A stretch of DNA of 64,000 nt, taken from Bradyrhizobium diazoefficiens (GTDB taxonomy: Bacteria; Pseudomonadota; Alphaproteobacteria; Rhizobiales; Xanthobacteraceae). The notes beneath the pieces were generated by a model. It did no database searches. It was given only the letters and a program-made list of their open reading frames with translations, and was not told the origin of the DNA. How positions within the stretch are numbered: position 1 is the stretch's first letter; every line of letters starts with the position of its first letter. Position numbers and translations under genes: made by a program. The DNA lies in assembly GCF_016599855.1 (NCBI RefSeq), contig NZ_CP067041.1, positions 2,170,001 through 2,234,000 of the forward strand, read 5' to 3'. This document shows, piece after piece, positions 24,693 through 59,283 of the stretch.

Positions 24693-24769
24693 CGGAGTGT
24701 GGCTCAGCCCGGTAGAGCACTGCGTTCGGGACGCAGGGGTCGCAGGTTCGAATCCTGCCACTCCGACCA
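24693..24769 (+). tRNA. tRNA-Pro (anticodon CGG)
   Basis: The 77-nt cloverleaf has acceptor arms CGGAGTG / CACTCCG, discriminator A and an encoded CCA at 24767-24769. The D arm is GCTCAGCCCGGTAGAGC and the anticodon arm CTGCG-TTCGGGA-CGCAG with CGG at 24727-24729. The T arm contains GGTTCGAATCC. It reads Pro CCG codons, which are abundant in this GC-rich genome. It is divergent from the tsaC/sua5 gene. Confidence 0.97.
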
Positions 24770-37071: not shown

Positions 37072-39093
37072 ATGAACATCTCGGTTCATGCCGACGCCGA
37101 CCTCACGGCAGTCACGCATGGCGATCTCGCCAACGCCATTCGCTTCCTCGCGGTCGACGCCATCGAGACCTCGCAGTCCGGCCATCCCGGCCTACCCATG
37201 GGCATGGCCGATGTCGCGACAGTGCTGTTCTCGCGCTTCCTGAAATTCGACTCCGCGCATCCCAACTGGCCCGATCGCGATCGCTTCGTGCTGTCCGCAG
37301 GCCACGGCTCGATGCTGCTCTATGCGCTGCTGCATCTGACCGGCGGCGATGTCAGCCTCGATGACATCAAGGCGTTCAGGCAGTGGGGCTCGAAAACGCC
37401 GGGCCATCCGGAGTATGGCCACACACCTGGTGTCGAGACCACGACCGGTCCGCTGGGGCAGGGGATTGCGACCGCGGTCGGCATGGCGCTCGCCGAGCGC
37501 ATGGCCAATGCACGTCATGGTGACGGCCTCGTCGACCACTTCACCTATGTGATCGCGGGCGACGGCTGCTTGATGGAAGGCATCAGCCAGGAGGCGATCT
37601 CGCTCGCCGGCCATCTCCAGCTTGGCCGCCTGATCGTGCTGTTCGACGACAACGGCATCTCTATTGACGGGCCGACATCGCTTGCGACGTCGGACGATCA
37701 GCTCGCACGTTTCGCCGCCTCCGGCTGGTCGGTGCGCCGCGTCGACGGACACGATCCCGAGGCCATCGCGCAGGCGATCGCCGAGGAGCGCGAGAGCGCA
37801 AAACCGTCGCTGATCGCCTGCCGCACCATCATCGGCTATGGCGCGCCGGATCGGCAGGGCACCGAGAAGGCGCATGGCGCGCCGCTCGGCGCCGAGCAGA
37901 TCGCGGCGGCGCGGCGGACACTGGGCTGGGACTACCAGCCGTTCGTGGTACCGATGCCGGTTGCGAAGGCGTGGCGGATGATCGGCCAGCGCGGACAGGT
38001 CGAACGTCTGGCCTGGCTCGATCGCTATGAACGCGCGACGCCCGAGCAGCGCGACCTGTTCATCGAGGGCAAAACGGTTGCCCTGCCGAACGCCTATGCC
38101 CAGGCCTCGGCGAAATTGCGTGAGCGCTTTGCCAGCGAGCGTCCGAAGCTCGCGACGCGTCAGGCCTCGCAGCAGGTGCTCGACGGCATCGCCGGGACGA
38201 TTCCCGGCCTGGTCGGCGGCTCCGCAGACCTGACGCATTCGAACCTGACGCACGCCAAGGCACAAGCGCCCGTCAAACCTGATGCGTTCGCCGGGGATTA
38301 CATCCATTACGGCATTCGCGAGCACGGCATGGCGGCCGCGATGAACGGCCTCGCGTTGCATGGGGGCTTCATTCCCTATGGCGGCACCTTCCTCGCATTC
38401 TCCGATTATAGCCGGCCGGCGATCCGCCTTGCGGCCCTGATGCGGCTGCGCGTCATCCATGTCATGACGCACGACTCCATTGGTCTCGGCGAAGATGGCC
38501 CGACGCATCAGCCGGTCGAGCACCTTGCGGCGCTCCGCGTCATTCCGAACTTGCTGGTGTTCCGCCCCGCAGACGCGATCGAGACGTTGGAGGCCTGGGA
38601 CTGCGCGCTTGAAGCGGAGCATCGCCCCTCCGTGCTGTGCCTGTCGCGTCAGGCGCTGCCGACCTTCCGCAGCGATGTCCGCGGCAGGAACCGCGTTGCG
38701 CGGGGCGCCTATCTCATCGTCTCGCCGGACGGCGGCCGCGACGTCACCCTGATCGCAACCGGTTCGGAAGTCTCGATCGCGCTGGAAGCCGCCCGCCTGC
38801 TCGCGACGGAGCATGTCCGCGCCGCTGTCGTGTCCGCACCGTGCTTCGCCCTATTCGAGGAGCAGCCGGACGACTATCGCGCGGCCGTTCTCGGCACCGC
38901 TCCGCGCGTCGGCATCGAGGCGGCTGTCGTCGGCGATTGGCATCGCTGGCTCGGCGCTGACGGCGAGTTCGTCGGCATGCGCGGCTTCGGCGCCTCGGCA
39001 CCGGCGCCGGTGCTCTACCGTGAATTCGGCATCACGCCGCAAAGCATTGCGGAAGCCGCCCGCCGGGCGATCGCCCGCGCAGGCAAGCGATAA
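37072..39093 (+). CDS. cbbT: Transketolase
   Basis: The ATG at 37072 follows TGGAGGATCTG and gives 673 residues. The TPP-binding motif runs from GDGCLMEG (residues 163-170) to the VLFDDN segment. [23 protein letters not shown] and [19 protein letters not shown] complete the PP and PYR domains, and a C-terminal transketolase domain follows. It transfers two-carbon units in the regenerative Calvin cycle. A second, housekeeping copy would be expected elsewhere. Confidence 0.95.
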
Positions 39094-39106
39094 TAGGAGA
39101 TTCTTC

Positions 39107-41684
<2,578 letters not shown>

Positions 41685-41695
41685 GGAGTTTTGTC

Positions 41696-42103
41696 ATGAA
41701 ACTGACCCAGGGTTGCTTCTCGTTCCTGCCCGATCTCACCGACGATCAGATCTATAAGCAGGTGCAATATTGCCTGGCCAACGGTTGGGCGGTGAACATG
41801 GAATTCACCGACGATCCGCATCCCCGCAACACTTATTGGGAAATGTGGGGCCTGCCGATGTTCGATCTCCAGGACGCGGCCGGCGTGATGATGGAGCTCG
41901 CAGAATGCCGCAGGGTCTATGGTGACCGCTACATCCGCATCAGCGGCTTCGATTCCAGCCACGGCTGGGAATCGGTGCGGATCTCCTTCCTGGTCAACCG
42001 CCCGCCGCAGGAGGCCGAGTTCGAGCTGGTGAGGCAGGAGGTGGGCGGCCGCGCGATCCGGTACAGCACCGTTCGCAAGGTGGCCACTCACGCCTCGCAA
42101 TAG
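41696..42103 (+). CDS. cbbS: RuBisCO small subunit, form IC
   Basis: The 135-residue protein starts [20 protein letters not shown], typical of red-type small subunits. [20 protein letters not shown] and the C-terminal extension with [16 protein letters not shown] also fit; red-type enzymes carry such a C-terminal beta-hairpin. It is 11 nt after cbbL with a GAGGAG ribosome site. Two tandem hairpins follow before cbbX. Confidence 0.97.
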
Positions 42104-42117
42104 CCATTGCTCTCCGC

Positions 42118-42189
42118 ACGGAGCTCTCCCTGCTCCGTATCCTTGGCGGACAACTGCTTCGCTGCTCCCCTCGCGGCGAAGCTCTTTTC
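42118..42189 (+). promoter_or_regulatory. Two tandem stem-loops between cbbS and cbbX
   Basis: Hairpin 1 has arms ACGGAGC / GCTCCGT (42118-42124 and 42132-42138). Hairpin 2 has arms GCTTCGC / GCGAAGC (42156-42162 and 42176-42182), with a larger loop and a trailing TCTTTTCTT. The second is terminator-like, and together they sit in the only large gap (98 bp) of the operon. They probably lower expression of cbbXE relative to the very abundant cbbLS message or stabilise its 3' end. Confidence 0.6.
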
Positions 42190-42201
42190 TTCGAGGTGCC
42201 G

Positions 42202-43131
42202 ATGCTTGACGTGCCCCACGCGACGACAACCGAGCCCAACGAGACCAGTTTCGATCTCCGCAAGGAGGCCGAAGCGGCTGGGATCACCGACACGCTGCAA
42301 CAGCTCGAGCGGGAATTGATCGGGCTCAAGCCCGTCAAGAGCCGCGTGCGCCAGATCGCTTCCCTGCTGCTGATCGAGCGCATCCGGCAACGGGCGGGAT
42401 TGGCCTCAGCACCGCCGACGTTGCACATGTCGTTCACCGGTAATCCCGGCACCGGCAAGACCACCGTGGCGCTGCGCATGGCAAAGATCCTGCACGGGCT
42501 CGGTTTCGTGCGGCGCGGACAGGTGATCTCGGTGACGCGCGACGATCTCGTCGGGCAATATATCGGCCACACCGCGCCCAAGACCAAGGAGATATTGAAG
42601 AAAGCGATGGGCGGTGTGCTGTTTATCGACGAGGCCTATTATCTGCACCGGCCCGACAATGAGCGCGACTACGGCCAGGAGGCGATCGAGATCCTGCTCC
42701 AGGTGATGGAGAACCAGCGCGAGGACCTCGTGGTGATCCTCGCCGGCTATGGCGAGCGGATGACGAGCTTCTTCGCTTCCAATCCCGGCTTCCGCTCGCG
42801 TATTGCCCACCACATCGACTTCCCGGACTATGCGGAAGCCGAGTTGCTCGTGATTGCCGAGCTGATGCTGCGGGAACGCGGCTATCGCTTCTCGGCCGCG
42901 GCCCGCGAGGCTTTTGAGAAATACATCGCATTGCGCCGGACACAGCCGTTCTTTTCCAATGCGCGCTCGATCCGCAACGCCGTCGACCGCATCCGCCTGC
43001 GGCAGGCCGATCGCCTGGTCTCCGATCTCGACCGCATGCTCGATGTCGCCGATCTCGAAACGATCGATCCTGCTGACATCCTTGCGAGTCGCGTCTTCAC
43101 TGGCGCCGATACGCGGAGGGCGCAGCCATGA
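42202..43131 (+). CDS. cbbX: Red-type RuBisCO activase
   Basis: The ATG at 42202 (ribosome site GAGG) gives 309 residues; an in-frame GTG lies 6 nt earlier. The AAA+ protein has Walker A GNPGTGKT at 80-87, [10 protein letters not shown] around 139-148 and [19 protein letters not shown] with the pore-loop region. CbbX hexamers remodel inhibited form IC RuBisCO by pulling the large-subunit C-terminus, activated by RuBP. Its stop overlaps the next gene's start (ATGA). Confidence 0.96.
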
Positions 43132-43865
43132 CGCGGGAGATCCTCATTGCCCCATCAATCCTGGCGGCAGACTTCGCGCGCCTCGGCGAGGAGATCGCGG
43201 CGATCGACGCGGCCGGCGCCGACTGGATCCATTGCGACGTCATGGACGGGCATTTCGTTCCGAACATCAGTTTCGGCGCCGATGTCGTCAGGGCGATCCG
43301 GCCGCTGACGAAGAAGATCTTTGACGTGCATCTGATGATCGCATCTGTTGATCCCTATCTGGAGGCGTTTGCGAAGGCGGGTGCCGATGTCATCACCGTC
43401 CATGCCGAGGCGGGCCCGCATCTCGATCGTTCGCTCCAGGCAGTCCGTGCGCTTGGCAAGAAGGCGGGCGTCAGCCTGTGCCCTGCGACGCCCGAGAGCG
43501 CGATCGAATATGTGCTCGATCGTCTCGACCTGGTGCTGGTGATGACGGTCAACCCGGGCTTCGGCGGCCAGTCGTTCCTTAACTCCCAGCTCGAGAAGAT
43601 CGCGCGGCTTCGCGCCATGATCGGCGAGCGGCCGATTCGCCTCGAGGTCGATGGCGGCGTTACGCGCGACAATGCGGCCGCCATTGCCGCCGCAGGCGCC
43701 GACACGCTTGTGGCGGGTTCGGCGGTGTTCGGCGGCCAGAGCAGGGCCGAGTATGCCGGCAACATCGCGGCCATTCGCGTTGCTGCGGAGGCCGGTCGGG
43801 CTCCGAATCTGCAGAATATTTCCGCGCAGCCCATCCGGGCCGGAGAGAGTGCGCTCACCCGGTAG
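43128..43865 (+). CDS. cbbE: Ribulose-phosphate 3-epimerase
   Basis: The 245-residue TIM-barrel protein carries [63 protein letters not shown] and [12 protein letters not shown]. All metal and catalytic residues appear present. It interconverts Xu5P and Ru5P to feed phosphoribulokinase. It is the last gene of the cbb operon and slightly longer at the C-terminus than typical Rpe. Confidence 0.95.
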
Positions 43866-44106: not shown

Positions 44107-45996
44107 ATGCACGCGGCGTGGCGTGATGGCGTGAGCATGCATCCTCTGTTCGCCGAGCAGCTCCGCTGCGCCACCGATGCGACCGGACAGTTCGATCTCG
44201 TCAAGCTGGGCGAGCTCGTCAGCGCGGCCTATGAGGCGGGCGATCGCGACCGCCAGATGATGACCGACCTGCGCGGGCACACGCCCGATCAAGTCGAGCA
44301 GGATCTGCTGCGGACCCAGGAGTTCCTCGACACTATCGTCGAAAACATCCCGATCGCCGTGTTCGCGAAATGCGCGAAGGATTCGCGCTATATCCTGCTC
44401 AACCGCGCCGGCGAGGACTATTACGGCCTGCCGCGCGAGCAGATGCTGGGCAGGACGCCTGAGGAGATTTTTCCAGCCGACGTCGCCCGCATGGTCAACG
44501 AGCAGGATCGTCGCGTCGTCGCCAGCGGCATGCCGATGTTGCTCGAGGAGCATCTGCTCGAAATCGGCGTCAAGGGCCACGATCGCGTGGTCAACTCGCG
44601 CAAGATGCTGATCACGGACGGCGACGGCGACCCGCAATACCTGCTCGGCGTGATCGAGGACGTCACCGAACGCGTCACCACGCAGGAGCGCATCAGCCAC
44701 CTGGCCCAGCATGATGCGCTGACCGACCTGCCGAACCGCAGCGCTTTCAATGTGGCGCTGGACGAGCGGCTGGAACGGGCGCAGGAGGCGGCGACCAGCT
44801 TCGCTGTGCTCAGCCTCGATCTCGATCACTTCAAGGAGATCAACGATGTGTTCGGCCATCCCGTCGGCGACATGCTGATGCGGGCGGCGGCCGAGCGGCT
44901 TGCAGCTGAAGCCGACGGCGCCTTTGTCGCCCGCATTGGCGGCGACGAGTTCATGATACTGATGCCCGACGACGCCCGCCGTGAAGACGTGCTCTCGCTC
45001 GCTGAGCGTCTGGTCGAGGCGATCGGCAAGGAGCTCGAGGTCGACGACTATCTTTCCCATGTCGGCCTCAGTGTCGGCATCGCGGTCTATCCGGACGACG
45101 GCGTCGATGCGGCGACACTGCTTGCGAACGCCGATTCCGCGCTCTATCGCGCCAAGCGCGAGGGCCGGCGCAGGGTCTGCTTCTTTGAAACCGAGATGGA
45201 CCGGGAGCTGCGCGACCGCAGGCTGTTGCAGCACGATCTGCGGCAGGCGGTGGAGCGGAACCAGTTGTTGGTCTACTTCCAGCCGCAGGCGCGGATGGAT
45301 GGCGAGATCATCGGCTTCGAGGCGCTGGTGCGCTGGAACCATCCGAGCCGCGGCATTGTGCCGCCCGACCAGTTCATTCCGCTTGCCGAGGAGAACGGGC
45401 TGATCATCGAGATCGGCGAATGGGTGCTGCGCGAGGCGTGTCGTGAGGCGGCATCCTGGCCACGGCCGCTGCAGGTTGCGGTCAATTTGTCGCCAGTCCA
45501 GTTCCAGGCAGGCGACCTCGAACGGTCCGTCCACCAGATCCTGCTGGAGACGGGACTTGCGCCGACGCGGCTCGAGGTCGAGATCACCGAGGGCGTGCTG
45601 ATCGGCGATTTCACCCGCGCGCTCAATCTGCTGCGGCGGCTTAAGGCGCTCGGCATCCGCATCGCGATGGACGATTTCGGCACCGGGTACTCATCGCTGT
45701 CCTATTTGCAGTCGTTTCCGTTCGACAAGATCAAGATCGACCGCAGCTTCATCTGCAACCTCGAAGCAACGCCGCAATCGGGCGAAATCGTTCGCGCGGT
45801 CTTGGGCCTTGCCCACGCCCTGCACCTTCCGGTCGTTGCTGAAGGAGTGGAGACGGAGGCGCAGCGCGCCTTCCTGGAACGCGAGGCTTGCGATGAGATG
45901 CAGGGCTATCTCATCGGGCGGCCCGAACCGATCGAACATTACCTCGAGTTGATCGGCATCAACCTGGAACGCCGTCGCTACGCCTATGCATCGTGA
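44107..45996 (+). CDS. PAS-GGDEF-EAL cyclic-di-GMP signalling protein
   Basis: The 629-residue protein has no signal or membrane segment. A PAS domain spans about residues 68-190 (FLDTIVENIPIAVFAKCAKD). The diguanylate cyclase domain has an intact GGDEF motif at 278-282. The phosphodiesterase domain has FEALVRWNHP (405-414), DDFGTGYSSLSYLQSFPFDK and VVAEGVETEAQ, so its core catalytic motifs look intact. No RxxD inhibitory site is visible just before GGDEF. The start at 44107 is uncertain; the ATG at 44137 is an alternative. It stands alone downstream of the cbb operon. Confidence 0.92.
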   Translation: MHAAWRDGVSMHPLFAEQLRCATDATGQFDLVKLGELVSAAYEAGDRDRQMMTDLRGHTPDQVEQDLLRTQEFLDTIVENIPIAVFAKCAKDSRYILLNRAGEDYYGLPREQMLGRTPEEIFPADVARMVNEQDRRVVASGMPMLLEEHLLEIGVKGHDRVVNSRKMLITDGDGDPQYLLGVIEDVTERVTTQERISHLAQHDALTDLPNRSAFNVALDERLERAQEAATSFAVLSLDLDHFKEINDVFGHPVGDMLMRAAAERLAAEADGAFVARIGGDEFMILMPDDARREDVLSLAERLVEAIGKELEVDDYLSHVGLSVGIAVYPDDGVDAATLLANADSALYRAKREGRRRVCFFETEMDRELRDRRLLQHDLRQAVERNQLLVYFQPQARMDGEIIGFEALVRWNHPSRGIVPPDQFIPLAEENGLIIEIGEWVLREACREAASWPRPLQVAVNLSPVQFQAGDLERSVHQILLETGLAPTRLEVEITEGVLIGDFTRALNLLRRLKALGIRIAMDDFGTGYSSLSYLQSFPFDKIKIDRSFICNLEATPQSGEIVRAVLGLAHALHLPVVAEGVETEAQRAFLEREACDEMQGYLIGRPEPIEHYLELIGINLERRRYAYAS

Positions 45997-46161
45997 GTTC
46001 CAAGCTCGAATTCGTCCGATAGGAACCAATGCGTGTCTGCGCATTTCCTAAAATTAACCCAGGTTAACCGGGCGGTGGGCGCAAAAAATGTTTTGCACAA
46101 TCGCCATCGCCCTGACGTAAATCGGGGCAATAAGCCTCATGTGAACGCGAGGGAGGGTCTC

Positions 46162-46374
46162 ATGGAGAACGTACGTCGCTACCGTGCGCTGGCGTCCCTC
46201 TGTCGCCAGCAGGCGGCCTATCGGCCGCTCCAGAACTGGCAGCTCCTCGGACAGGCCGAACATTTCGAATATCTCGCCGAGATTGCGCTGAAGGCGCATT
46301 TCGACGCGTGCAATGCCCAGCGCGAAGAAGACGCGATCGCAGCCGCGGCATGGGAGACCCCCGCCGCGGCGTGA
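46162..46374 (+). CDS. Small protein of the 'VRRYR' family, unknown function
   Basis: The ATG at 46162 follows GAGGGAGGG and gives 70 residues. MENVRRYRALASLCRQQAAY, then RPLQNWQLLGQAEHFEYLAE, parallels the protein at 33540. It is all-helical by appearance, with an Ala-rich tail. Function unknown; the paralogy suggests a lineage-specific family. Confidence 0.75.
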   Translation: MENVRRYRALASLCRQQAAYRPLQNWQLLGQAEHFEYLAEIALKAHFDACNAQREEDAIAAAAWETPAAA

Positions 46375-46504
46375 GAAGCTGCTGCCTTGATCCCGTTAGC
46401 CGTGCGCGACCGCGAGCCCTGCGGACCGAGAATGGCGTTTCCCGGCAACGCCTAATCAGACGCTCACTTGCGGCCTTGGCGCATTCTGAATCGCCGCCTT
46501 GGGC

Positions 46505-46540
46505 CGGGCTTTTCTTTTCCAACGGGCTTTTCTTTTCCAA
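46505..46540 (+). repeat. Perfect 18-bp tandem duplication
   Basis: CGGGCTTTTCTTTTCCAA occurs twice in direct succession (46505-46522 and 46523-46540), about 85 bp upstream of the DegP-like start codon. The T-rich units differ from the surrounding GC-rich DNA. It may reflect slippage in a leader, and its copy number could vary between strains. Confidence 0.85.
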
Positions 46541-46624
46541 GAATTAATCGGACGGACGGGACGTCGTAAGGTGGCGATGACCATGTTGGGTGCAAGGCGA
46601 CTTACCCAATATGGAGATTTCGAC

Positions 46625-48160
46625 ATGAAAGATCCCGTCAGTTCCAACATCACGACATCCCGCAAGATCTTGAAACCGCGCCGCCTTGCGCTGCTCGGTA
46701 CTGTAGCCGCGCTTGGTGTGGCCGTGCTGGTTGCATCACCGGCTTCGACGCCGTTCGGTGTGAGCTCCCTGATTTCACCGGCACGAGCGACCGAGGCAAC
46801 CGCGACGCCGCCGGGCTTCGCCGACCTCGTCAGCAAGGTCAAACCCGCCGTCATTTCGGTGCGGGTGAAGATCGACCAGGACAGCGACAAGAGCGCAATG
46901 CTGCAACAGAACCGGATGGACCACGACGAGGATTCCCCGTTCGACCAGTTCTCGCGGCAGTTCGGTTTCCGCTTGCCCAACGGCATGAACGGCATGGCGC
47001 GTGAACGCCACCAGGTGATCACGGGCGAGGGGTCCGGCTTCTTCATCTCCGCCGACGGCTATGCGGTGACCAACAACCACGTCGTCGATCACGCCCAGTC
47101 CGTACAGGTGACGACGGATGACGGCACGATCTACACCGCGAAGGTGGTCGGCACCGATCCGAAGACCGATCTCGCGCTGATCAAGGTCGACGGCAAGAAG
47201 GATTTTCCGTTCGTGAAATTCTCCGACCAGAAGCCGCGGATCGGTGACTGGGTGGTCGCAGTCGGCAATCCCTTCGGCCTCGGTGGCACCGTGACCGCCG
47301 GCATCGTCTCCGCCAGTGGCCGCGACATCGGCAACGGCCCCTATGACGATTTCATCCAGATCGACGCCCCGATCAACAAGGGCAATTCCGGCGGACCGGC
47401 CTTCGACATGAACGGCAACGTGATCGGCGTGAACACGGCGATCTTCTCGCCGTCCGGCGGCTCGGTCGGCATCGGCTTCGACATTCCGGCTTCGACCGCG
47501 AAGCTCGTGGTCGCACAGCTGAAGGATAAGGGTGCCGTCACCCGCGGCTGGCTCGGCGTGCAGGTGCAGCCGGTGACCCCGGAGATCGCCGACAGCCTCG
47601 GCCTGAAGGCGGCGCGCGGCGCAATCGTCGACAACCCGCAGGATGGCAGTCCGGCAGCGAAGGCCGGCATCGAGGCGGGTGATGTCATCACCGCCGTCAA
47701 CGGCACGGCGATCAAGGATTCGCGCGATCTCGCCCGCACCATCGCCACGCTGGCGCCGGGCACGTCCGTGAAACTCGATGTCATCCACAAGGGCCAAACC
47801 AAGACGGTGACGCTGGCGCTCGGCGAGCTGCCGAACGAGCGGCAGGCCAAGGCCGATGGCGGCAAAACGCAGCAGGCACTCGGTACGCCGCGCCTCGGCT
47901 TGAGCCTGGCGCCGGCCGGCGACGTTCAGGGCGCCGGCCAGAAGGGTGTGGTGGTCACCGACGTCGATCCGCAGGGGCCGGCGGCGCAGCACGGCATCCA
48001 GACCGGCGATGTCATCCTCAATGTCGGCGGCAAGCCCGTCGCCAATGTCGGCGACGTCCGTTCCGAACTGGCGCAGGCCAAATCGTCCGGCAAGAACAGC
48101 GTATTGTTGCAGGTGAAGAGCGCGGAAGCGACCCGCTTCGTCGCGGTGCCCCTGGCATAG
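46625..48160 (+). CDS. DegP/HtrA-like periplasmic serine endoprotease
   Basis: The ATG at 46625 follows TGGAGATT with good spacing and gives 511 residues. A membrane or signal segment lies at about 20-40. The trypsin-like domain has His 152 (TNNHVV), Asp 182 (KTDLALIKV) and Ser 255 (NKGNSGGPAF). Two PDZ domains follow, beginning near RGWLGVQVQPVTPEIA and TPRLGLSLAP. It degrades or refolds damaged envelope proteins. It is monocistronic, with a terminator 25 nt downstream. Confidence 0.93.
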   Translation: MKDPVSSNITTSRKILKPRRLALLGTVAALGVAVLVASPASTPFGVSSLISPARATEATATPPGFADLVSKVKPAVISVRVKIDQDSDKSAMLQQNRMDHDEDSPFDQFSRQFGFRLPNGMNGMARERHQVITGEGSGFFISADGYAVTNNHVVDHAQSVQVTTDDGTIYTAKVVGTDPKTDLALIKVDGKKDFPFVKFSDQKPRIGDWVVAVGNPFGLGGTVTAGIVSASGRDIGNGPYDDFIQIDAPINKGNSGGPAFDMNGNVIGVNTAIFSPSGGSVGIGFDIPASTAKLVVAQLKDKGAVTRGWLGVQVQPVTPEIADSLGLKAARGAIVDNPQDGSPAAKAGIEAGDVITAVNGTAIKDSRDLARTIATLAPGTSVKLDVIHKGQTKTVTLALGELPNERQAKADGGKTQQALGTPRLGLSLAPAGDVQGAGQKGVVVTDVDPQGPAAQHGIQTGDVILNVGGKPVANVGDVRSELAQAKSSGKNSVLLQVKSAEATRFVAVPLA

Positions 48161-51044: not shown

Positions 51045-51266
51045 ATGGGTAAGGTGGTCTTTCTCTATCGCTCGCTGGCCTACCGTAACGCAGCGGCCGA
51101 CATGTTGCGCAAGGCGCGCAAGCTGCCGCGCGGTGCGGAGCGCAGCGCGGCCCGTCGCTACGCCAGGGCCTTGCGCGAGCTCGCGCAAACGGAAGCCTGG
51201 CTCGAAGGGCGCATTGCCGATGAACCGCGGCCGATGTTGCGACTGAAGGTGGTTGCGTCGCGCTAA
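51045..51266 (+). CDS. Small basic helical protein, unknown function
   Basis: The ATG at 51045 with GGGAATATTC upstream gives 73 residues; in-frame ATGs at 50961 and 51015 are alternatives. FLYRSLAYRNAAADMLRKAR and ARRYARALRELAQTEAWLEG are two basic amphipathic helices. The C-terminal WLEGRI resembles the QDWLDGEI of the protein at 60247. The gene overlaps the convergent kinase gene by 4 nt. Confidence 0.6.
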   Translation: MGKVVFLYRSLAYRNAAADMLRKARKLPRGAERSAARRYARALRELAQTEAWLEGRIADEPRPMLRLKVVASR

Positions 51267-52756
51267 CCCGACGCACGCTGAAGTTCGGGAGAGGTGCTGG
51301 CCTCGAACTTGTCCTGTGCCGCCGATGTTGCCGCGCTCTTGCGCTTCAACGGCACCTCGAGGCGGCACAACAGGCCCTCTGAACGCCAATCGAATTGCGC
51401 CTGTCCGCCGAGCTGGGATTCGACGCTGGCGAGCAGGCTTGTTGTTCCGAAGCCGCGCGATTTCGGCGTCCTGACCAGTGGTCCTCCGGTCTCCTCCCAA
51501 GTCAGTTCGAGGAGATCGTTCTCGGTCTGCCAGCCGATCGCGAGCCGCCCCGACCGGGTCGAGAGGGCGCCATACTTCGCCGAATTGGTGAAGAGCTCGT
51601 GCAGCGCCAGCGCCAGCGTCTGGGCGGTGGCGGGCAGCAATTGTACTTCGGGACCCGCCAGCTTGATCTGTCCGCCGGGCGCATAGGGCGCAAGCTCTTC
51701 GTCGATCAGCTTGGAGAGCTCGGCGCCCTGCCAGCTCGACAACGACAGGATGGTGTGCACGCGGGCGAGGGCATTGATGCGCCCTTCGACGGCATTGACA
51801 TAGGCTTTCATCTCGTCGGCGCGGGTGAGGCGCACGATCGACTGCGCCAGCGCCAGCGCATTTTTGGCGCGGTGATCGACTTCCCGCGCCAGCAGGTTCT
51901 GCCGTTCCTCGGCGCGCTTGCGTTCGGTGATGTCGACGGTGACGCCGCTCACCCGCACCACGCGGCCGCTCGGATCCGCCGTCGCGGCTGCCGTGCCGAC
52001 GCACCAGCGCACCTCGCCATCGGGCCGCACGATTCGGAACTCCGTCTCATATGCGCGCGTGCCTTTGTTGAATTCGGCAACGGCCTTGCGCAATTGATCG
52101 ACGTCGTCCGGATGCAGCAGTGCCTGAACATTGGCCGGGTTGACCTCGAAGGTCTCCGGCGTCACGCCGAAGATGCGGTACTGCCCTTCGTCCCACATCC
52201 AGTCGCCGTTGACCCAGTCCCAGTCCCAGGATCCCATCTTGCCGGCGGCGATGGCCATGCTGCGCCGCTCCTCGCTCTCGCGCAGCTTCGCGGTCGAGTT
52301 CTCCAGCTCCGCCGTGCGGGCGCGGACGCGATCCTCGAGATCCTGGTTCAGCCGTTCGAGCTCGCGCGTCTTGCGATAGAGCTCGGCGAATACCTTGACC
52401 TTTGCGCGAAGCACCTCCGGCACGACCGGCACCGGCACGTAATCGACCGCACCCATCTCGTAGCCGCGCAGGCGATCGATGTCGCTGACTTGAATGGCCG
52501 AAATGAAGATCATCGCGGTCTTCTGGAAGCGCGGATGCTCGCGGATCATCGCCGCAAGCTCGAAACCGTCGAGCTCGGGCATGCAGACGTCGACGAGGAT
52601 CACCGCGATCTCGGTCTTGAGCAGCACCTCGAGCGCCTCGCGGCCTGACGAGGCGACCACGAGGTTCTCACCGAGTTCCTTCAAGATCACCTCATAGGCG
52701 AGCAGCTTGGCCGGCTGGTCGTCGACGAGGAGGATGTTGACCTTTTCATGGTCCAT
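51263..52756 (-). CDS. REC-PAS-HWE histidine kinase
   Basis: The 497-residue soluble protein has three parts. The receiver (1-125) has acidic residues in LLVDDQ, phospho-acceptor Asp 56 (VDVCMP), but Val 109 where receivers normally have the conserved Lys (YVPVPVVPE). A coiled coil leads to a PAS domain at about 165-280. The HWE kinase core has His 295 in REVDHRAKNALALAQS and the diagnostic W-x-E in LELTWEETGGP. It lies 13 bp downstream of the large hybrid kinase and is probably cotranscribed. HWE kinases often act in general stress or light signalling. Confidence 0.9.
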   Translation of the reverse strand: MDHEKVNILLVDDQPAKLLAYEVILKELGENLVVASSGREALEVLLKTEIAVILVDVCMPELDGFELAAMIREHPRFQKTAMIFISAIQVSDIDRLRGYEMGAVDYVPVPVVPEVLRAKVKVFAELYRKTRELERLNQDLEDRVRARTAELENSTAKLRESEERRSMAIAAGKMGSWDWDWVNGDWMWDEGQYRIFGVTPETFEVNPANVQALLHPDDVDQLRKAVAEFNKGTRAYETEFRIVRPDGEVRWCVGTAAATADPSGRVVRVSGVTVDITERKRAEERQNLLAREVDHRAKNALALAQSIVRLTRADEMKAYVNAVEGRINALARVHTILSLSSWQGAELSKLIDEELAPYAPGGQIKLAGPEVQLLPATAQTLALALHELFTNSAKYGALSTRSGRLAIGWQTENDLLELTWEETGGPLVRTPKSRGFGTTSLLASVESQLGGQAQFDWRSEGLLCRLEVPLKRKSAATSAAQDKFEASTSPELQRASG

Positions 52757-52769
52757 TCGCGGATCCTAC

Positions 52770-55700
52770 TCAGCGATGCAGCCACATGCGGATTGCAAGC
52801 AGCAATTGATCGGTGTTGACGGGCTTTGCGAGATAATCGGAGGCGCCTGCCTCCAGGCATTTCTCGCGGTCGCCCTTCATCGCCTTTGCCGTCAGTGCGA
52901 TGATCGGCAGGCGCAGGAAGGCCGGGTTCTCCCGGATCACGCCGATGGTCTGATAGCCATCCATCTGCGGCATCATGATGTCCATCAGCACGATGGCGAT
53001 CTCGGGGTTGGATTCGACCAGCGTCACCGCTTCGCGGCCGGTGGTCGCCGTCAGCACCTTCATGCCGCGCCGTTCCAGCACGCTCGACAGCGCGAAGATG
53101 TTGCGGGCGTCGTCGTCGACGAGCAGCGCGGTCTTGCCGATCAAATCCTCATCGGAACTGTTCAACTTCTCCAGCATGCGCTGCTTCTCGACGGGCAGCT
53201 CCGTGATCACGCGGTGCAGGAACAGCGCGGTTTCGTCGAGCAGGCGTTCGGGCGACTCCACGCCCTTGACGACGATGCTGCGCGCCATGGTGTGGAGCTC
53301 CGCATCCTCTTCGGCAGACAGCTCGCGGCCGGTGAATACCACGACGGGAACGTTCGACAGCGTGTCGTCGCGGCGGATCTGGTCCAGCACCTCGAAGCCG
53401 CTCATGTCGGGCAGCCTGAGGTCGAGCACGACGCAGTCGCACGGCGCTTCGCGCAAGGTCGAGAGCGCGCCTGCGCCCGTGGCGGTAGTCACGATCTCGA
53501 TGTCGTCGTGATGCAACAACTCCCGGATCGACAGCTGTTCGGCCTCGTTGTCCTCGACAATCAGGAGGCGCTTCCGCCGCGGTCGCGCATATTCCTTGAT
53601 CTGGGTCAGCGCGGCGGAGACGCCCTCCGTCGTCGTCGGCTTGTTGACGAAGGAGAAGGCGCCGCGGGCCAGCGCATGCTGGCGATCCTCGTCAAGCGTG
53701 ATGATCTGCACCGGAATGTGGCGCGTCAGCGGGTTGTGCTTGAGCTGGCTCAGGACCGTCCAGCCGAGCATGTCGGGCAGGAACACGTCCAGCGATACCG
53801 CGCGGGGCTGATACTGCTTGGCAAGCTCGAGCGCCTCCGCGCCGCGCGCTGCGACCAGGACCTTGAAGCCCTTGTCGCGCGCGAGGTCAACGAGGATACG
53901 GGCATAATGCGGATCGTCCTCGACGATCAGCAGGATGCTGTCGCCGGGCTCGAGATTGAGCCGGTCGTCGGGCAGCTGCTCGATGACGCGCTGCTGTTCC
54001 GGCGCGGCCGGCTGGAGCGCCGGCGGCTGGTGTTGTGACGCCGGCGCGGCGCGCGGCGCCAGCGTCGGGCCGGAATATTTCAGCGGCAGATATAGGGTGA
54101 AGGTCGAGCCCTTGCCGGGGGCGCTGCGGAGATGGATTTCGCCGCCGAGCAGGCTCGCGAGTTCGCGGCTGATGGCAAGGCCGAGGCCGGTGCCGCCGTA
54201 TTTGCGGCTGGTGCCGGCGTCCGCTTGCTGGAATGCCTCGAAGATCAGCTTCTGCTTCTCCAGGGGGATGCCGATGCCGGTGTCGGAGACCTCGAAGGCG
54301 ATCACTGCCGGCGCGGCATTCAGCACCGGATGATCGCTGCTCCAGCCGCCAAGCGCCCCGGCAACCTTCAGCCGCACTTCGCCTTCGCCGGTGAACTTGA
54401 AGGCGTTGGAGAGCAGGTTTTTCAGGACCTGTTGCAGGCGCTTCGAGTCGGTGACGATGCTGCGTGCGAGGTTCGGATCGACATCGATCTTGAACGACAG
54501 ATTTCGGTTCTCCGCCTCGTGCCGGAACGGCCGCCCGACGGTTTCGAGCAGGTTCGCGGTGAGGATTTCCTCGGCGTCGACCGTCACCGTGCCGGACTCG
54601 ATCTTGGAGAGATCGAGAATGTCGCTGATGAGGTTAAGAAGGTCGGTGCCGGCGCCGTGGATGGTGCGGGCGAATTCGACCTGCTTGGCGGAGAGATTGC
54701 CGTCCGGGTTGTCGGTGAGCTGTTGTCCGAGGATCAGGATCGAGTTCAGCGGGGTGCGCAGCTCGTGGCTCATATTTGCCAGGAATTCGGACTTGTACTT
54801 CGAGGTCAGGGCGAGCTCGGTCGCCTTTTCCTCGAGCGCGCGGCGGGCCTGCTCGATTTCCTGGTTCTTGCGTTCGACCTCGACGTTGCGTTCGGCGAGC
54901 TGCTGCGCCTTCTGCTCGAGCTGGTCGTTGGTCTGCTGCAATTCGCGCTGTTGCGTCTGGAGCTCTCCGGCGAGCTGCTGCGACTGCTTGAGCAGGCCTT
55001 CAGTCTGCATCGTCGCCTCGATCGAATTGAGCACGATGCCGATCGAATCGGTGAGCTGCTCCAGGAACGTCATCTGCGAGGTCGTGAACGAGGTGAGCGA
55101 TGCGAGCTCGATCACGGCCTTGACCTGGCCTTCGAACAGCACCGGCAGCACCACGAGGTTCTTCGGTGCGACGCGGAGCAGCGCCGAGTTGATCGGCACC
55201 ACATCGGCGGGAATGTCGGCGACGACGCGCGGGCGCCGGTCGAGCGCGCACTGGCCGATCAGACCGTCGCCGAACGGCAGCACGCGCTGATATGGATAGA
55301 CGCCATCGCCGGCATAGGAGGCGAGCAGCAGGAGCTGTGGATTGTCCTCGCTCTCGACCTGATAGATCACGCCGGTATGCGCGTTTACCAGCGGCGACAG
55401 CTCGGTCAGCAGCAGCCGGCCGACGGTGGCGAGGTCGCGCTGGCCCTGGAGCATGTTGGTGAATTTGGCAAGGTTGGTCTTCAGCCAGTCCTGCTCGGTG
55501 TTCAGCTCCGTCGTGAGACGGAGATTCGTGATCATCGTGTTGATGTTGTCTTTCAGCTCGGCGACCTCGCCGCGGGCGTCGACCTGGATCGACCGCGTCA
55601 AATCGCCCTTGGTCACTGCGGTCGCGACTTCCGCGATCGCGCGCACCTGCGAGGTCAGGTTGGCCGCCAGCAGGTTGACGTTGCCGGTGAGGTCCTTCCA

Positions 55701-58700
55701 GGTGCCGGCCGCGCCGGGCACGTCGGCCTGGCCGCCGAGACGGCCTTCGACCCCGACCTCGCGCGCCACCGACGTCACCTGGTCGGCGAAGGTCGCAAGC
55801 GTCTCGGTCATGTTGTTGATGGTGTCGGCGAGCGCTGCGACCTCGCCCTTCGATTTCACGGTGAGGTTCTGCTTGAGGTCGCCGTTGGCGACCGCGGTCA
55901 CCACCTTGACGATGCCGCGGACCTGTTCGGTCAGGTTCGCCGCCATGAAGTTGACGGTATCGGTGAGGTCTTTCCAGGTGCCGGCCACGCCCGGCACCGT
56001 GGCCTGGCCGCCGAGCTCGCCTTCGGTGCCGACCTCGCGGGCGACGCGCGTGACTTCGCCGGCGAAGGCGTTGAGCTGGTCCACCATGGTGTTGATGGTG
56101 TTTTTCAGCTCCAGGATTTCGCCCTTCACGTCCACGGTGATTTTTCGCGACAAGTCGCCGCGCGCGACGGCGGTGGTGACCTCGGCGATGTTGCGGACCT
56201 GCGTGGTGAGGTTCGCCGCGAGCAGGTTGACGTTGTCGGTGAGATCTTTCCAGGTGCCGCCGACGCCGGGCACCACGGCCTGACCGCCGAGCCGGCCTTC
56301 GGTGCCGACCTCGCGCGCCACGCGCGTCACTTCGGCGGCGAAGGAGCGCAGCTGCTCCACCATGGTGTTCAACGTGTCCTTCAGCAGCAGGATCTCGCCG
56401 CGCACGTCCACCGTGATCTTCTTGGAGAGATCGCCGCCGGCAATCGCGGTCGCGACCTCGGCGATGTTGCGGACCTGGGCCGTCAGGTTCGAAGCCATGA
56501 AGTTGACGTTGTCGGTGAGGTCCTTCCAGGTGCCGGCAACACCCGGCACCTCGGCCTGGCCGCCGAGCTTGCCTTCGGTGCCGACCTCGCGCGCCACGCG
56601 CGTCACTTCGCCGGCAAAGCCGTTGAGCTGGTCCACCATGGTGTTGATGGTGTTCTTCAGCTCGAGGATTTCGCCCTTCACGTCCACGGTGATCTTGCGG
56701 GACAGGTCGCCGCGGGCCACTGCGGTCGTGACCTCGGCGATGTTGCGGACCTGAGCTGTGAGGTTGCCCGCCATCGAGTTCACGGAGTCCGTCAAATCTT
56801 TCCAGGTGCCGGCGACGCCGGGCACGTTGGCCTGACCGCCGAGCCGGCCTTCGGTGCCGACCTCGCGCGCGACGCGCGTCACCTCGCCCGCAAAGCGGTT
56901 GAGCTGGTCGACCATCGTATTGAGAGTGTCCTTGAGCTGAAGGATCTCGCCGCGGACGTCCACCGTGATCTTGCGCGACAAGTCGCCGCCTGCGATGGCG
57001 GTCGCGACCTCGGCGATGTTGCGGACCTGGGCGGTGAGGTTGCCCGCCATCGAGTTGACGTTGTCGGTGAGGTCCTTCCAGGTGCCGGCGACGCCCGGCA
57101 CCTGCGCTTGACCGCCGAGCTTGCCTTCGGTGCCGACCTCGCGCGCCACGCGCGTCACTTCGCCGGCAAAGGCGTTGAGCTGGTCGACCATGGTGTTGAG
57201 CGTCTCCTTCAGCTGAAGGATTTCGCCCGACACGTTCACTGTGATCTTCTTCGACAAATCGCCCTTGGCGACCGCGGTCGCGACTTCGGCGATGTTGCGG
57301 ACCTGACCGGTCAGGTTCGACGCCATCGAATTGACCGAGTCCGTCAGATCCTTCCAGGTGCCGGCGACGCCGCGCACCTGGGCCTGACCGCCGAGCTTGC
57401 CTTCGGTGCCGACTTCGCGCGCGACGCGCGTGACTTCGCCGGCAAACGCATTGAGCTGGTCCACCATGGTGTTGATGGTGTCCTTCAGCTCCAGAATTTC
57501 GCCGCGCACGTCCACGGTGATCTTCTTGGACAAGTCGCCGCCGGCGACCGCCGTCGTCACCTCGGCGATGTTGCGAACCTGCGCGGTCAGGTTCGACGCC
57601 ATCGAGTTGACGCTTTCGGTGAGGTCCTTCCAGGTGCCGGCGACGCCGAGCACGTTGGCTTGGCCGCCGAGCCGGCCTTCGGTGCCGACCTCGCGCGCCA
57701 CGCGCGTCACTTCGCCGGCGAAGGCGTTGAGCTGATCGACCATGGTGTTGAGCGTTTCCTTAAGCTGGAGGATCTCGCCCGAGACGTTCACGGTGATCTT
57801 CTTCGACAAGTCGCCGCCCGCGATGGCGGTGGCGACGTCGGCGATGTTGCGGACCTGGGCCGTCAGGTTTGACGCCATGAAGTTGACGTTGTCGGTGAGG
57901 TCCTTCCAGGTACCGGCAACGCCTGGCACCTGGGCCTGGCCGCCGAGCTTGCCTTCGGTGCCGACCTCGCGCGCCACGCGCGTCACTTCGGAGGCGAATG
58001 AGTTGAGCTGGTCCACCATTGTGTTGATGGTGTCCTTCAACTCCAGGATTTCGCCGCGCACGTCCACGGTGATCTTGCGGGACAAGTCGCCGCGCGCCAC
58101 GGCAGTCGTCACGTTGGCGATATTGCGGACCTGCGCGGTGAGATTGCCGCACATCGCGTTGACGGAGTCCGTCAGGTCCTTCCAAGTGCCGGCGACGCCG
58201 GGGACGATGGCCTGGCCGCCGAGCTTGCCGTCGGTGCCGACCTCGCGCGCCACGCGCGTCACTTCGGAGGCGAAGGAGCGCAGCTGGTCCACCATCGTGT
58301 TGATGGCTTCCTTGAGCTGAAGGATCTCGCCGCGGACGTCGACGGTGATCTTCTTGGAGAGGTCGCCGTTGGCGACCGCGATCGTCACCTCGGCGATGTT
58401 GCGGACCTGGTTGGTCAGGTTGTTCGCCATCGAGTTGACGCTCTCGGTCAGGTCCTTCCAGACGCCGGTCACCTCCGGCACCTGGGCCTGGCCGCCGAGC
58501 TTGCCTTCGGTGCCGACCTCGCGCGCGACGCGGGTCACCTCGGAGGTGAACACGCCGAGCTGCTTGATCATCGTGTTGACGATGGTCGCCGATTGCAGGA
58601 ATTCGCCGCGGAGCGGACGGCCCTCGACGTCGAGCTTGACGGTGTCGAGCAGGTCGCCTTGCGCCACGGCCGCGACGGCGCGGGTCACCTCGCGCGTCGG

Positions 58701-59060
58701 CCACAACAGATCGTCGATCAGCGTGTTGACGGAGCCTTCCATGTCGGCCCAGGAGCCGGAGGCCAGGCCGAACTTCACGCGCTGACGGGTCTTGCCTTCG
58801 CGTCCGACCACCTGGCCGACCAGCTCCAGCTGCTGCGCCATGCGCTGGTTGGCGGCGATGATTTCATTAAAAGTGTCGGCAAGCTTGCCGTCGATGCCGA
58901 GATAATCGCCGCTCATGCGGACGGAGAAATCGCCGCTGCGCATGGCCTGGAGCGCGAGGAGCAGTTCCGCCCGGGAATCCGGCTCCGACGTGCCGTTGGG
59001 TTTTGGCTTTGGGACGCGACGACCGGAGCGTGTTGCTGATCCGGAATCGAGGTCGCTCAT
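52770..59060 (-). CDS. Giant hybrid sensor histidine kinase with a tandem HAMP array
   Basis: From the ATG at 59060 (GGGGGA ribosome site) the protein is 2,096 residues with no membrane segment. A HAMP-like leader (about 40-198) precedes eleven tandem 92-residue units starting at residue 199, each with [11 protein letters not shown], GDLSxKITV and [16 protein letters not shown]. Next come a GAF domain (about 1205-1360), a coiled coil, HisKA with His 1432 ([11 protein letters not shown]), an HATPase ([19 protein letters not shown]) and three receivers near 1710, 1830 and 1976, with Asp in [16 protein letters not shown] and MDIMMPQM. The architecture resembles fungal group III (Nik1-type) osmosensing kinases. 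It is divergent from the secreted-protein gene at 59336. Confidence 0.95.
55467..58466 (-). repeat. 276-bp tandem repeat array inside the hybrid kinase gene
   Basis: Ten complete in-frame 276-bp units (58466 down to 55707) and an eleventh partial unit encode the HAMP array. Units are highly similar; the segment coding for [19 protein letters not shown] is nearly identical in most. Units fall into two types by their middle segment (EL..TINTM versus QL..TLNTM). The array is a natural hotspot for homologous recombination and for assembly collapse. Confidence 0.95.
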
Positions 59061-59283
59061 ACTAAATCCCCCGCAGGCGTCGGCCGAATCTGATGGCAAG
59101 ACGCGACTGGTCAAAATAGAGCGTCAGCCAAATTCGAAATCAAGCGCCAAGGTTGCGACGCGAGGAATTGGAACCTGCCGTACTCAGCCCAACCGACACA
59201 ACGGGGAAGATCGCCAACGGTTCCATCAGATTTCAGAAAAACTGCAATCGGGACAGCGTTCCCGCTCCCCCGCCGTCGGGCTT

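Follow-up and report, generated by a model that had tools for sequence, protein, structure and literature searches.

The window analysed here is a 64,000-nucleotide stretch of contig NZ_CP067041.1 from Bradyrhizobium diazoefficiens. On its minus strand, an open frame of 2114 amino acids (aa) at 52770-59114 encodes a poly-HAMP hybrid histidine kinase containing eleven consecutive units of 92 residues, and a second kinase gene, headed by a receiver domain, follows immediately downstream. The inner units of the array fall into two types, A and B, arranged in alternation with one slip. This pattern is real and well conserved, and the kinase belongs to a family of a known kind. We consider it probable that the protein is a hybrid sensor kinase, soluble and of the poly-HAMP kind known from bacteria, in which a long HAMP rod would relay a signal to a GAF-HisKA kinase working together with the downstream partner. 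In our judgement, the A/B order is less interesting than the constant 92-aa period, the frequency of arrays with eleven units and the conservation of the neighbouring gene's receiver.

Domain layout and repeat units

The open frame itself begins at 59114, the ATG at its codon 19 (59060) being the likelier start of translation. The gene and its parts are as follows.

52770..59060, minus strand: poly-HAMP hybrid histidine kinase gene, presumed to start at the ATG (open reading frame (ORF) with Pfam HAMP, GAF_2, HisKA, HATPase_c and three Response_reg domains)
58539..58967, minus strand: N-terminal HAMP region, probably about three HAMPs
58263..58538, minus strand: unit 1 (T52/Q74/I79)
57987..58262, minus strand: unit 2, type A
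57711..57986, minus strand: unit 3, type B
57435..57710, minus strand: unit 4, type A
57159..57434, minus strand: unit 5, type B, first of the B-B slip
56883..57158, minus strand: unit 6, type B, second of the B-B slip
56607..56882, minus strand: unit 7, type A
56331..56606, minus strand: unit 8, type B
56055..56330, minus strand: unit 9, type A
55779..56054, minus strand: unit 10, C-terminal cap unit, one clade across several phyla (100/100, 13/13 rows)
55503..55778, minus strand: unit 11, C-terminal cap unit, one clade across several phyla (100/100, 13/13 rows)
55029..55439, minus strand: GAF domain (PF13185, aa 1226-1362)
54591..54794, minus strand: HisKA (PF00512), with the motif SHELRTPL from aa 1449
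54078..54449, minus strand: HATPase_c (PF02518)
52773..53933, minus strand: three receiver domains (PF00072, three stretches, limits of the first two approximate; aspartate motifs from aa 1774, 1897 and 2043)

The layout is that of the group III-like hybrid kinases, as they have been termed (PMC7643160). Pfam detects HAMPs in 11 stretches N-terminal to the kinase (PF00672, E 2.6e-115), HisKA and HATPase_c precede the receivers, and the expected motifs are present. The peak 19-residue hydropathy is 1.62, which in a plain hydropathy window, rather than a dedicated predictor, gives no transmembrane segment. Among the matches listed for its 7.1-Mb genome, a single contig, no other gene is a poly-HAMP kinase of this sort: the remaining ones cover only aa 1327-2114 of the query, behind the array.

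The eleven units fill aa 193-1204, or 55503-58538 on the minus strand. An earlier note on this DNA had placed the array at 55467..58466, which is the right region with the ends 36 and 72 bases off. Its description of eleven 92-residue units of two types, alternating with one break at units 5-6, was borne out. Judged by the middle segment (unit columns 74 and 79), units 2, 4, 7 and 9 read EL..TINTM (type A) and units 3, 5, 6 and 8 read QL/LL..TLNTM (type B). Of the 35 ways to divide units 2-9 four and four, this one separates them best, with four clean columns of the 92 (columns 19, 52, 74 and 79) against two for the next-best split. Taken alone, the alternation proves little: the probability of seven or more runs, given four A and four B, is 0.114, and near-perfect alternation in one eight-unit protein is thus not beyond chance. 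It gains weight because the identical order is found in all 66 parsed eleven-unit loci of the genus, as described below.

Could the array be an artefact of sequencing? We regard an assembly error in its length or order as having almost no chance of being the explanation. Fragmented assemblies do break within the gene (e.g. G041, G067 and G071), but the source genome is a single contig, and the order is the same in 66/66 loci. The array length looks sound: each of the 20 one-contig genomes among the 98 genus genomes, the source genome included, has one end-to-end match. On the opposite strand, an open frame of 1246 aa overlaps the array in antisense (54132-57872, plus strand); it is probably a by-product of high GC content and repeats.

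Unit order and array length among relatives

The kinase is nearly ubiquitous in the genus, with 94 of the 98 genomes giving a match at E <= 1e-200; the four exceptions comprise one genome with a partial match (E <= 1e-60) and three without any. We examined 72 same-genus loci, locating the units by a scoring matrix; 66 of them (from 65 genomes, G020 being represented twice) could be parsed with 11 units. Read by column 74, every one of these 66 has the order ABABBABA, slip included. Type A is not entirely uniform, as column 79 of some A units is Val or Phe rather than Ile in part of these loci. The six other loci comprise two complete arrays, L038 with nine units and L040 with ten, and four others: L039 and L041 contain unread letters (N), L042 is cut off by the end of its contig, and in L072 the frame is broken. 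In three orthologues the match breaks late in the gene, within a single contig in L043 (G095) and L044 (G042) and across two contigs in G050; these may possibly be frameshifts or assembly errors.

Not only the order but also the identity of each unit is kept by position. When the units of 16 genus genomes are compared as DNA, a unit finds its best match at its own position in 93-100% of cases, and in the family sample this proportion is 66-100%. Beyond the family it is 19-47% for units 2-9 and 99-100% for the cap units 10 and 11. Within the genus, units 3 and 7 differ from their orthologues at 0.31-0.32 of fourfold sites. The constancy of the order in 66/66 loci despite such large fourfold divergence suggests that the type residues are held by selection. 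The slip is common to the genus and is therefore old, not an event in the source genome. The A/B types descend from the genus ancestor or an older one, and have been kept by position since.

Relatives reach far beyond the genus. At E <= 1e-150, matches were obtained in 50 of 119 genomes drawn from the family, 12 of 150 from the order and 22 of 337 from the class, tallies that include own-genus genomes and some matches spanning the kinase end only. Among named genomes, the closest relatives are those of Bradyrhizobium (best 80 of at least 587 matches, a selection biased to similar ones), and others occur in Rhizobium (also on plasmid pRLN1), Neorhizobium, Nitrospirillum and Ramlibacter, as well as in Acidobacteriota, Nitrospirota, Verrucomicrobiota, Planctomycetota, Myxococcota, Gemmatimonadota and Fibrobacteres. 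Rhizobial carriers include Rhizobium leguminosarum, R. laguerreae, R. giardinii and Neorhizobium. The suggestion that the layout is unusual in a rhizobial setting thus has to be dropped, given its presence in 94/98 genus genomes, in Rhizobium and Neorhizobium and in several phyla.

Across this wide range the spacing of the units is almost invariant. It equals 92 aa in 1423 of 1424 spacings in 145 distinct arrays, taken from 176 complete ones after setting aside arrays with unread residues or without both ends; L159, which has one spacing of 100, lies outside this count. As for the number of units, 113 of the 145 arrays have 11 and 14 have nine, the others ranging from 4 to 16; outside the genus, 11 units are found in 48 of 78 distinct complete arrays and nine units in 13. 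The extremes occur in otherwise similar kinases (four units in L104 and L114, 16 in L176). In Ramlibacter albus (L190), units 1-9 group within the species and the inner units are 95% alike; the array has been homogenised, with the count still 11.

The order of the types is far less constant than the spacing. This bears on the idea that A/B order is a functional code, in which the alternation of unit types would determine alternating conformers or the stiffness of the rod, with the slip as a functional break. The strict conservation of order and slip in the 66 genus loci, in the face of large synonymous divergence, speaks for such a code. However, ABABBABA by column 74 is seen in only 10 of the 55 eleven-unit loci outside the genus, where 7 loci have ABAABABA, 7 have ABBBBABA and 4 have AAAAAABA (L145, L169, L175 and L199), whereas three (L189, L190 and L193) have the all-A interior AAAAAAAA. 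Thus, relatives with the full count of units do without the order, which is hard to square with its being a functional requirement. In several Acidobacteriota the slip sits at another place (ABAABABA). Even within the genus, L040 lacks the slip and L038 lacks two units, and only four columns separate A and B cleanly. We therefore consider a functional code of this sort quite unlikely.

History of the array and nature of the unit

The earlier note proposed that the array grew by duplication of a two-unit block plus one slip, and part of this proposal stands. In a DNA tree of units 2-9 from five genomes, A units lie on one side and B units on the other, with support of 87/98, which is below the tool's star; the A/B clades are not apparent in the wider protein tree as drawn. 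Two unit lineages are thus partly supported, and losses of units among close relatives follow them. Compared with its close relatives, L038 has lost two units, the join running from unit 7.66-7.88 to the same place in unit 9, A to A (fit 0.943 per base). In L040, one unit was lost at 5.12-5.22, at the B-B slip, joining unit 5 to unit 6 (fit 0.929 per base); in the protein this join is less sharp (4.86-5.35). L185, compared with a relative 89% identical in the C-terminal part, also has unit 7 joined to unit 9. Like units recombine with like, and this shapes which units get lost. Outside close relatives the junctions, of which our listing is incomplete, are mixed, joining like units in L098, L100 and L118 and unlike ones in L104, L106, L109 and L202.

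The other part of the proposal, a general two-unit step, did not hold up. In one parsimony reconstruction over 89 of the 145 arrays, the genus having been thinned by hand, 13 changes of two units stand against 8 of one (one-sided p = 0.19), and of 26 count changes 12 altered parity. A recent two-unit duplication in the source genome is ruled out by the differences at fourfold sites between units 2-9 (0.20-0.40) and by the positional orthology within the genus. Units 7 and 9, described as almost identical, are in fact 91% identical in protein and 88% in DNA. Similar protein values are found for units 3 and 5 (92%, with 86% in DNA) and for units 4 and 7 (91%). Some gene conversion between units within the genus is possible, on mixed evidence: for units 7 and 9 DNA identity is 0.863 within a genome, 0.890 between orthologues and 0.854 between paralogues across genomes, and for units 3 and 5 the fourfold difference is 0.266 within a genome versus 0.318 across genomes.

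These observations invite another explanation, namely that A and B are a mere trace of duplication history with no role, their order being kept since unit recombination is rare. The two sides of the unit tree and the deletions joining like units are what it would lead one to expect, as is protein identity between units, which is highest at lag 2 (87.1%) and lower at lag 1 (83.7%), although in DNA lag 5 (85.1%) surpasses lag 2 (84.6%). It sits less well with the type residues being nearly fixed in the genus while synonymous sites turn over. The residues at least seem to be under selection, given the rarity of one of their combinations (see below), and we regard an account by history alone as rather unlikely.

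What, then, might distinguish A from B? The earlier note invoked alternating HAMP conformations, which have been proposed for poly-HAMP chains. In the published account this alternation, between HAMP1-like and HAMP2-like conformers, runs between successive single HAMPs (PMC3570549), and a HAMP measures about 50 aa (PMC11253588, PMC12077210). Each 92-aa unit, in contrast, most likely holds two successive HAMPs. Predicted secondary structure passes from helix to connector two times in every 92 aa (mean pLDDT 42 in an AF2 model of units 2-4, 68 in a second model), and the confidently modelled N-terminal part can be superposed on the poly-HAMP structure of Aer2. With the Aer2 model of NCBIfam, 12 stretches match, the longest-scoring hit spanning 93 aa, at a level under the model's whole-protein cut-off. 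The closest solved sequences are 9trk (370 bits, aa 35-324) and 9trj (215 bits, aa 35-235), deposited in the PDB as 'histidine kinase,Gcn4p'; they reach no further than the N-terminal part and roughly one and a half units, and 9trk was absent from the matches of the fold searches (library up to April 2026). Since the unit is most likely a pair of HAMPs and the published alternation runs between successive HAMPs, each unit would already contain both conformers, and A/B can hardly stand for them.

Of the separating columns, 19 belongs to the first HAMP of the unit and 52, 74 and 79 to the second. Residues 52 and 79 vary together, as the functional code would have it. In 603 distinct inner units from outside the genus, Leu/Met79 occurs with Ala52 in 133 and with Thr/Ser52 in just 10, while Ile/Val79 occurs with Ala52 in 76 and with Thr/Ser52 in 378, counts in which kinship of the units inflates the coupling. 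With some genus loci included (660 units), the numbers are 168 (Ala-Leu/Met), 10 (Thr/Ser-Leu/Met), 76 (Ala-Ile/Val) and 400 (Thr/Ser-Ile/Val). The scarcity of Thr/Ser52 with Leu/Met79 is the rare combination referred to above. The coupling fits two packings of one core, in which the two residues might be in contact, and A/B may accordingly represent a packing variant of one HAMP inside the unit.

Several results weigh against reading the units as HAMP pairs with two packings. Pfam calls one HAMP per unit (11 stretches), and the two halves of the unit align weakly as profiles (E 0.014, probability 3%). In the superposition mentioned above, several unrelated helical chains reach a higher Z than Aer2, and the Foldseek match to Aer2 is first in rank but weak (E 0.67). 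An independent-pairs test of positions 52 and 79 gave one supported independent pair; common descent could underlie their coupling.

The downstream partner and a possible relay mechanism

The gene that follows the poly-HAMP kinase encodes a second kinase.

51263..52756, minus strand: partner kinase REC-PAS-HWE_HK (Pfam), 13 bases downstream of the poly-HAMP gene

A receiver-headed kinase gene immediately downstream is also the arrangement of the AskB/AskC gene pair discussed below, and it recurs widely among the relatives. Taking the longest same-strand ORF starting within 700 bases, we found that the following ORF matches the partner in 132 of 140 loci with enough flank. These comprise 34 same-genus loci and 106 others, with some genomes present twice and Bradyrhizobium also among the others; the survey excluded 57 loci with less than 900 bases of flank and L183, which has no such ORF. 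In L172, the match covers the kinase half only. Ten following ORFs were scanned with Pfam, and nine carry receivers, the tenth (L150) having no Pfam match. What stands behind the head receiver varies, being HisKA with a second receiver, HisKA_2, HisKA_3, GAF-HisKA or PAS-HisKA. In all 17 loci hand-chosen from the 140 for comparison, conservation is higher in the receiver than in the remainder of the partner. The receiver's identity is 70-79% in nine of them (family members, Nitrospirillum, Rhizobium, Acidobacteriota and one planctomycete) and 44-53% in the eight more distant ones, and the rest of the partner has no match in 9 of the 17. This contrast suggests that the partner receiver may be a fixed contact and the kinase behind it exchangeable.

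Partnership is not universal, however, which tells against it as a general rule. Eight of the 140 loci have no matching partner (L150, L160, L182, L186, L187, L193, L197 and L204), and they include both Myxococcota loci (L150 and L160), although the literature puts askC right behind askB in a member of that phylum.

The closest described systems were compared with the pair studied here by description and layout. In Myxococcus xanthus, AskB and AskC (MXAN_6735 and MXAN_6734) were studied together with AskA and Amb07 (PMC7643160). The Ask kinases are likewise soluble poly-HAMP hybrid kinases with several receivers, and AskB is reported to have 11 pairs of HTH-like matches over its HAMPs, the same as the number of units here (PMC7643160). 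The askC gene follows askB directly, and in a two-hybrid assay the receiver of AskC interacts with receiver 3 of AskA; AskC is called a hybrid kinase, unlike the REC-PAS-HWE partner here, and ambruticin sensing is a feature of the Ask system (PMC7643160). OsaA and OsaB of Streptomyces coelicolor (SCO5748 and SCO5749) serve osmotic adaptation (PMC9739842, PMC10117811). As here, OsaA is a hybrid kinase without a transmembrane helix, with more than 10 HAMPs, and is encoded beside a receiver-protein gene. It is 1829 aa long with one REC domain mentioned, compared with three receivers here, while OsaB, a receiver plus coiled coil with its own promoter, is not a kinase (PMC9739842, PMC10117811). The fungal group III kinases (Nik1, TcsC) share the N-terminal HAMP chain, the lack of a transmembrane region, and the kinase and receiver (PMC11253588, PMC7643160). 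TcsC is reported to have six HAMPs, whereas the protein here would have about 25, plus a GAF domain and three receivers. The fungal kinases control the HOG pathway and act in osmotic and fludioxonil responses. Finally, Aer2 of Pseudomonas aeruginosa (3lnr, 4i44 and 4i3m), the source of the alternating-conformer idea, also has concatenated HAMPs, but it is a soluble receptor with three N-terminal HAMPs and no kinase in the chain (PMC3570549).

Could the repeat region be mainly a DNA- or protein-binding scaffold instead of a signal relay? AskB is reported to bind DNA in vitro, and the partial SpoIIID and HTH_6 matches seen in our protein are like those reported for AskA and AskB (PMC7643160). 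Nevertheless, no stretch of these matches is individually significant, they are located in the HAMP array, and the fixed 92-aa spacing and the fused kinase fit a relay. We judge a scaffold role to be very unlikely.

In the relay that we favour, two chains would most likely run in parallel and form a single long rod in which about 25 HAMPs are concatenated, some three of them N-terminal and 22 in the eleven 92-aa units. An input would shift the helices of the rod, and the change would travel towards the kinase as opposite conformers in successive HAMPs. There it would set the GAF-HisKA kinase, from which phosphate would pass to the protein's own receivers. The kinase probably works with the head receiver of the downstream kinase, by contact or by phosphotransfer, and A and B would be two packings of the same HAMP within the unit. 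A bolder version, which we put forward only tentatively and think less likely to be right than wrong, is that the kinase and its neighbour form one widespread module. Its rod would consist of exact 92-aa double HAMPs, most often eleven, and would gain or lose nothing but whole double units, which would preserve the sign of the relayed signal; the partner receiver would be fixed, the kinase behind it exchanged between lineages, and A/B would tune the packing.

In our view, the poly-HAMP kinases are the bacterial counterpart of the fungal kinases of the osmotic and fungicide responses. With natural variants in length (from 4 to 16 units) and in unit type, all with unchanged spacing, models of signal relay become testable on existing proteins, and the conserved head receiver of the neighbouring gene offers a concrete partner in most lineages seen.

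Elsewhere in the window, Calvin-cycle genes lie at 38813-43865 on the plus strand (class II fructose-bisphosphate aldolase, RuBisCO large chain, an AAA ATPase and ribulose-phosphate 3-epimerase by Pfam), the AAA ATPase being one that we take to be CbbX-like. They are followed at 44107-48160 (plus strand) by a PAS-GGDEF-EAL protein and, next to it, a trypsin/PDZ protease. The sole tRNA found in the window is a tRNA-Pro (cgg) at 24693-24769 on the plus strand.

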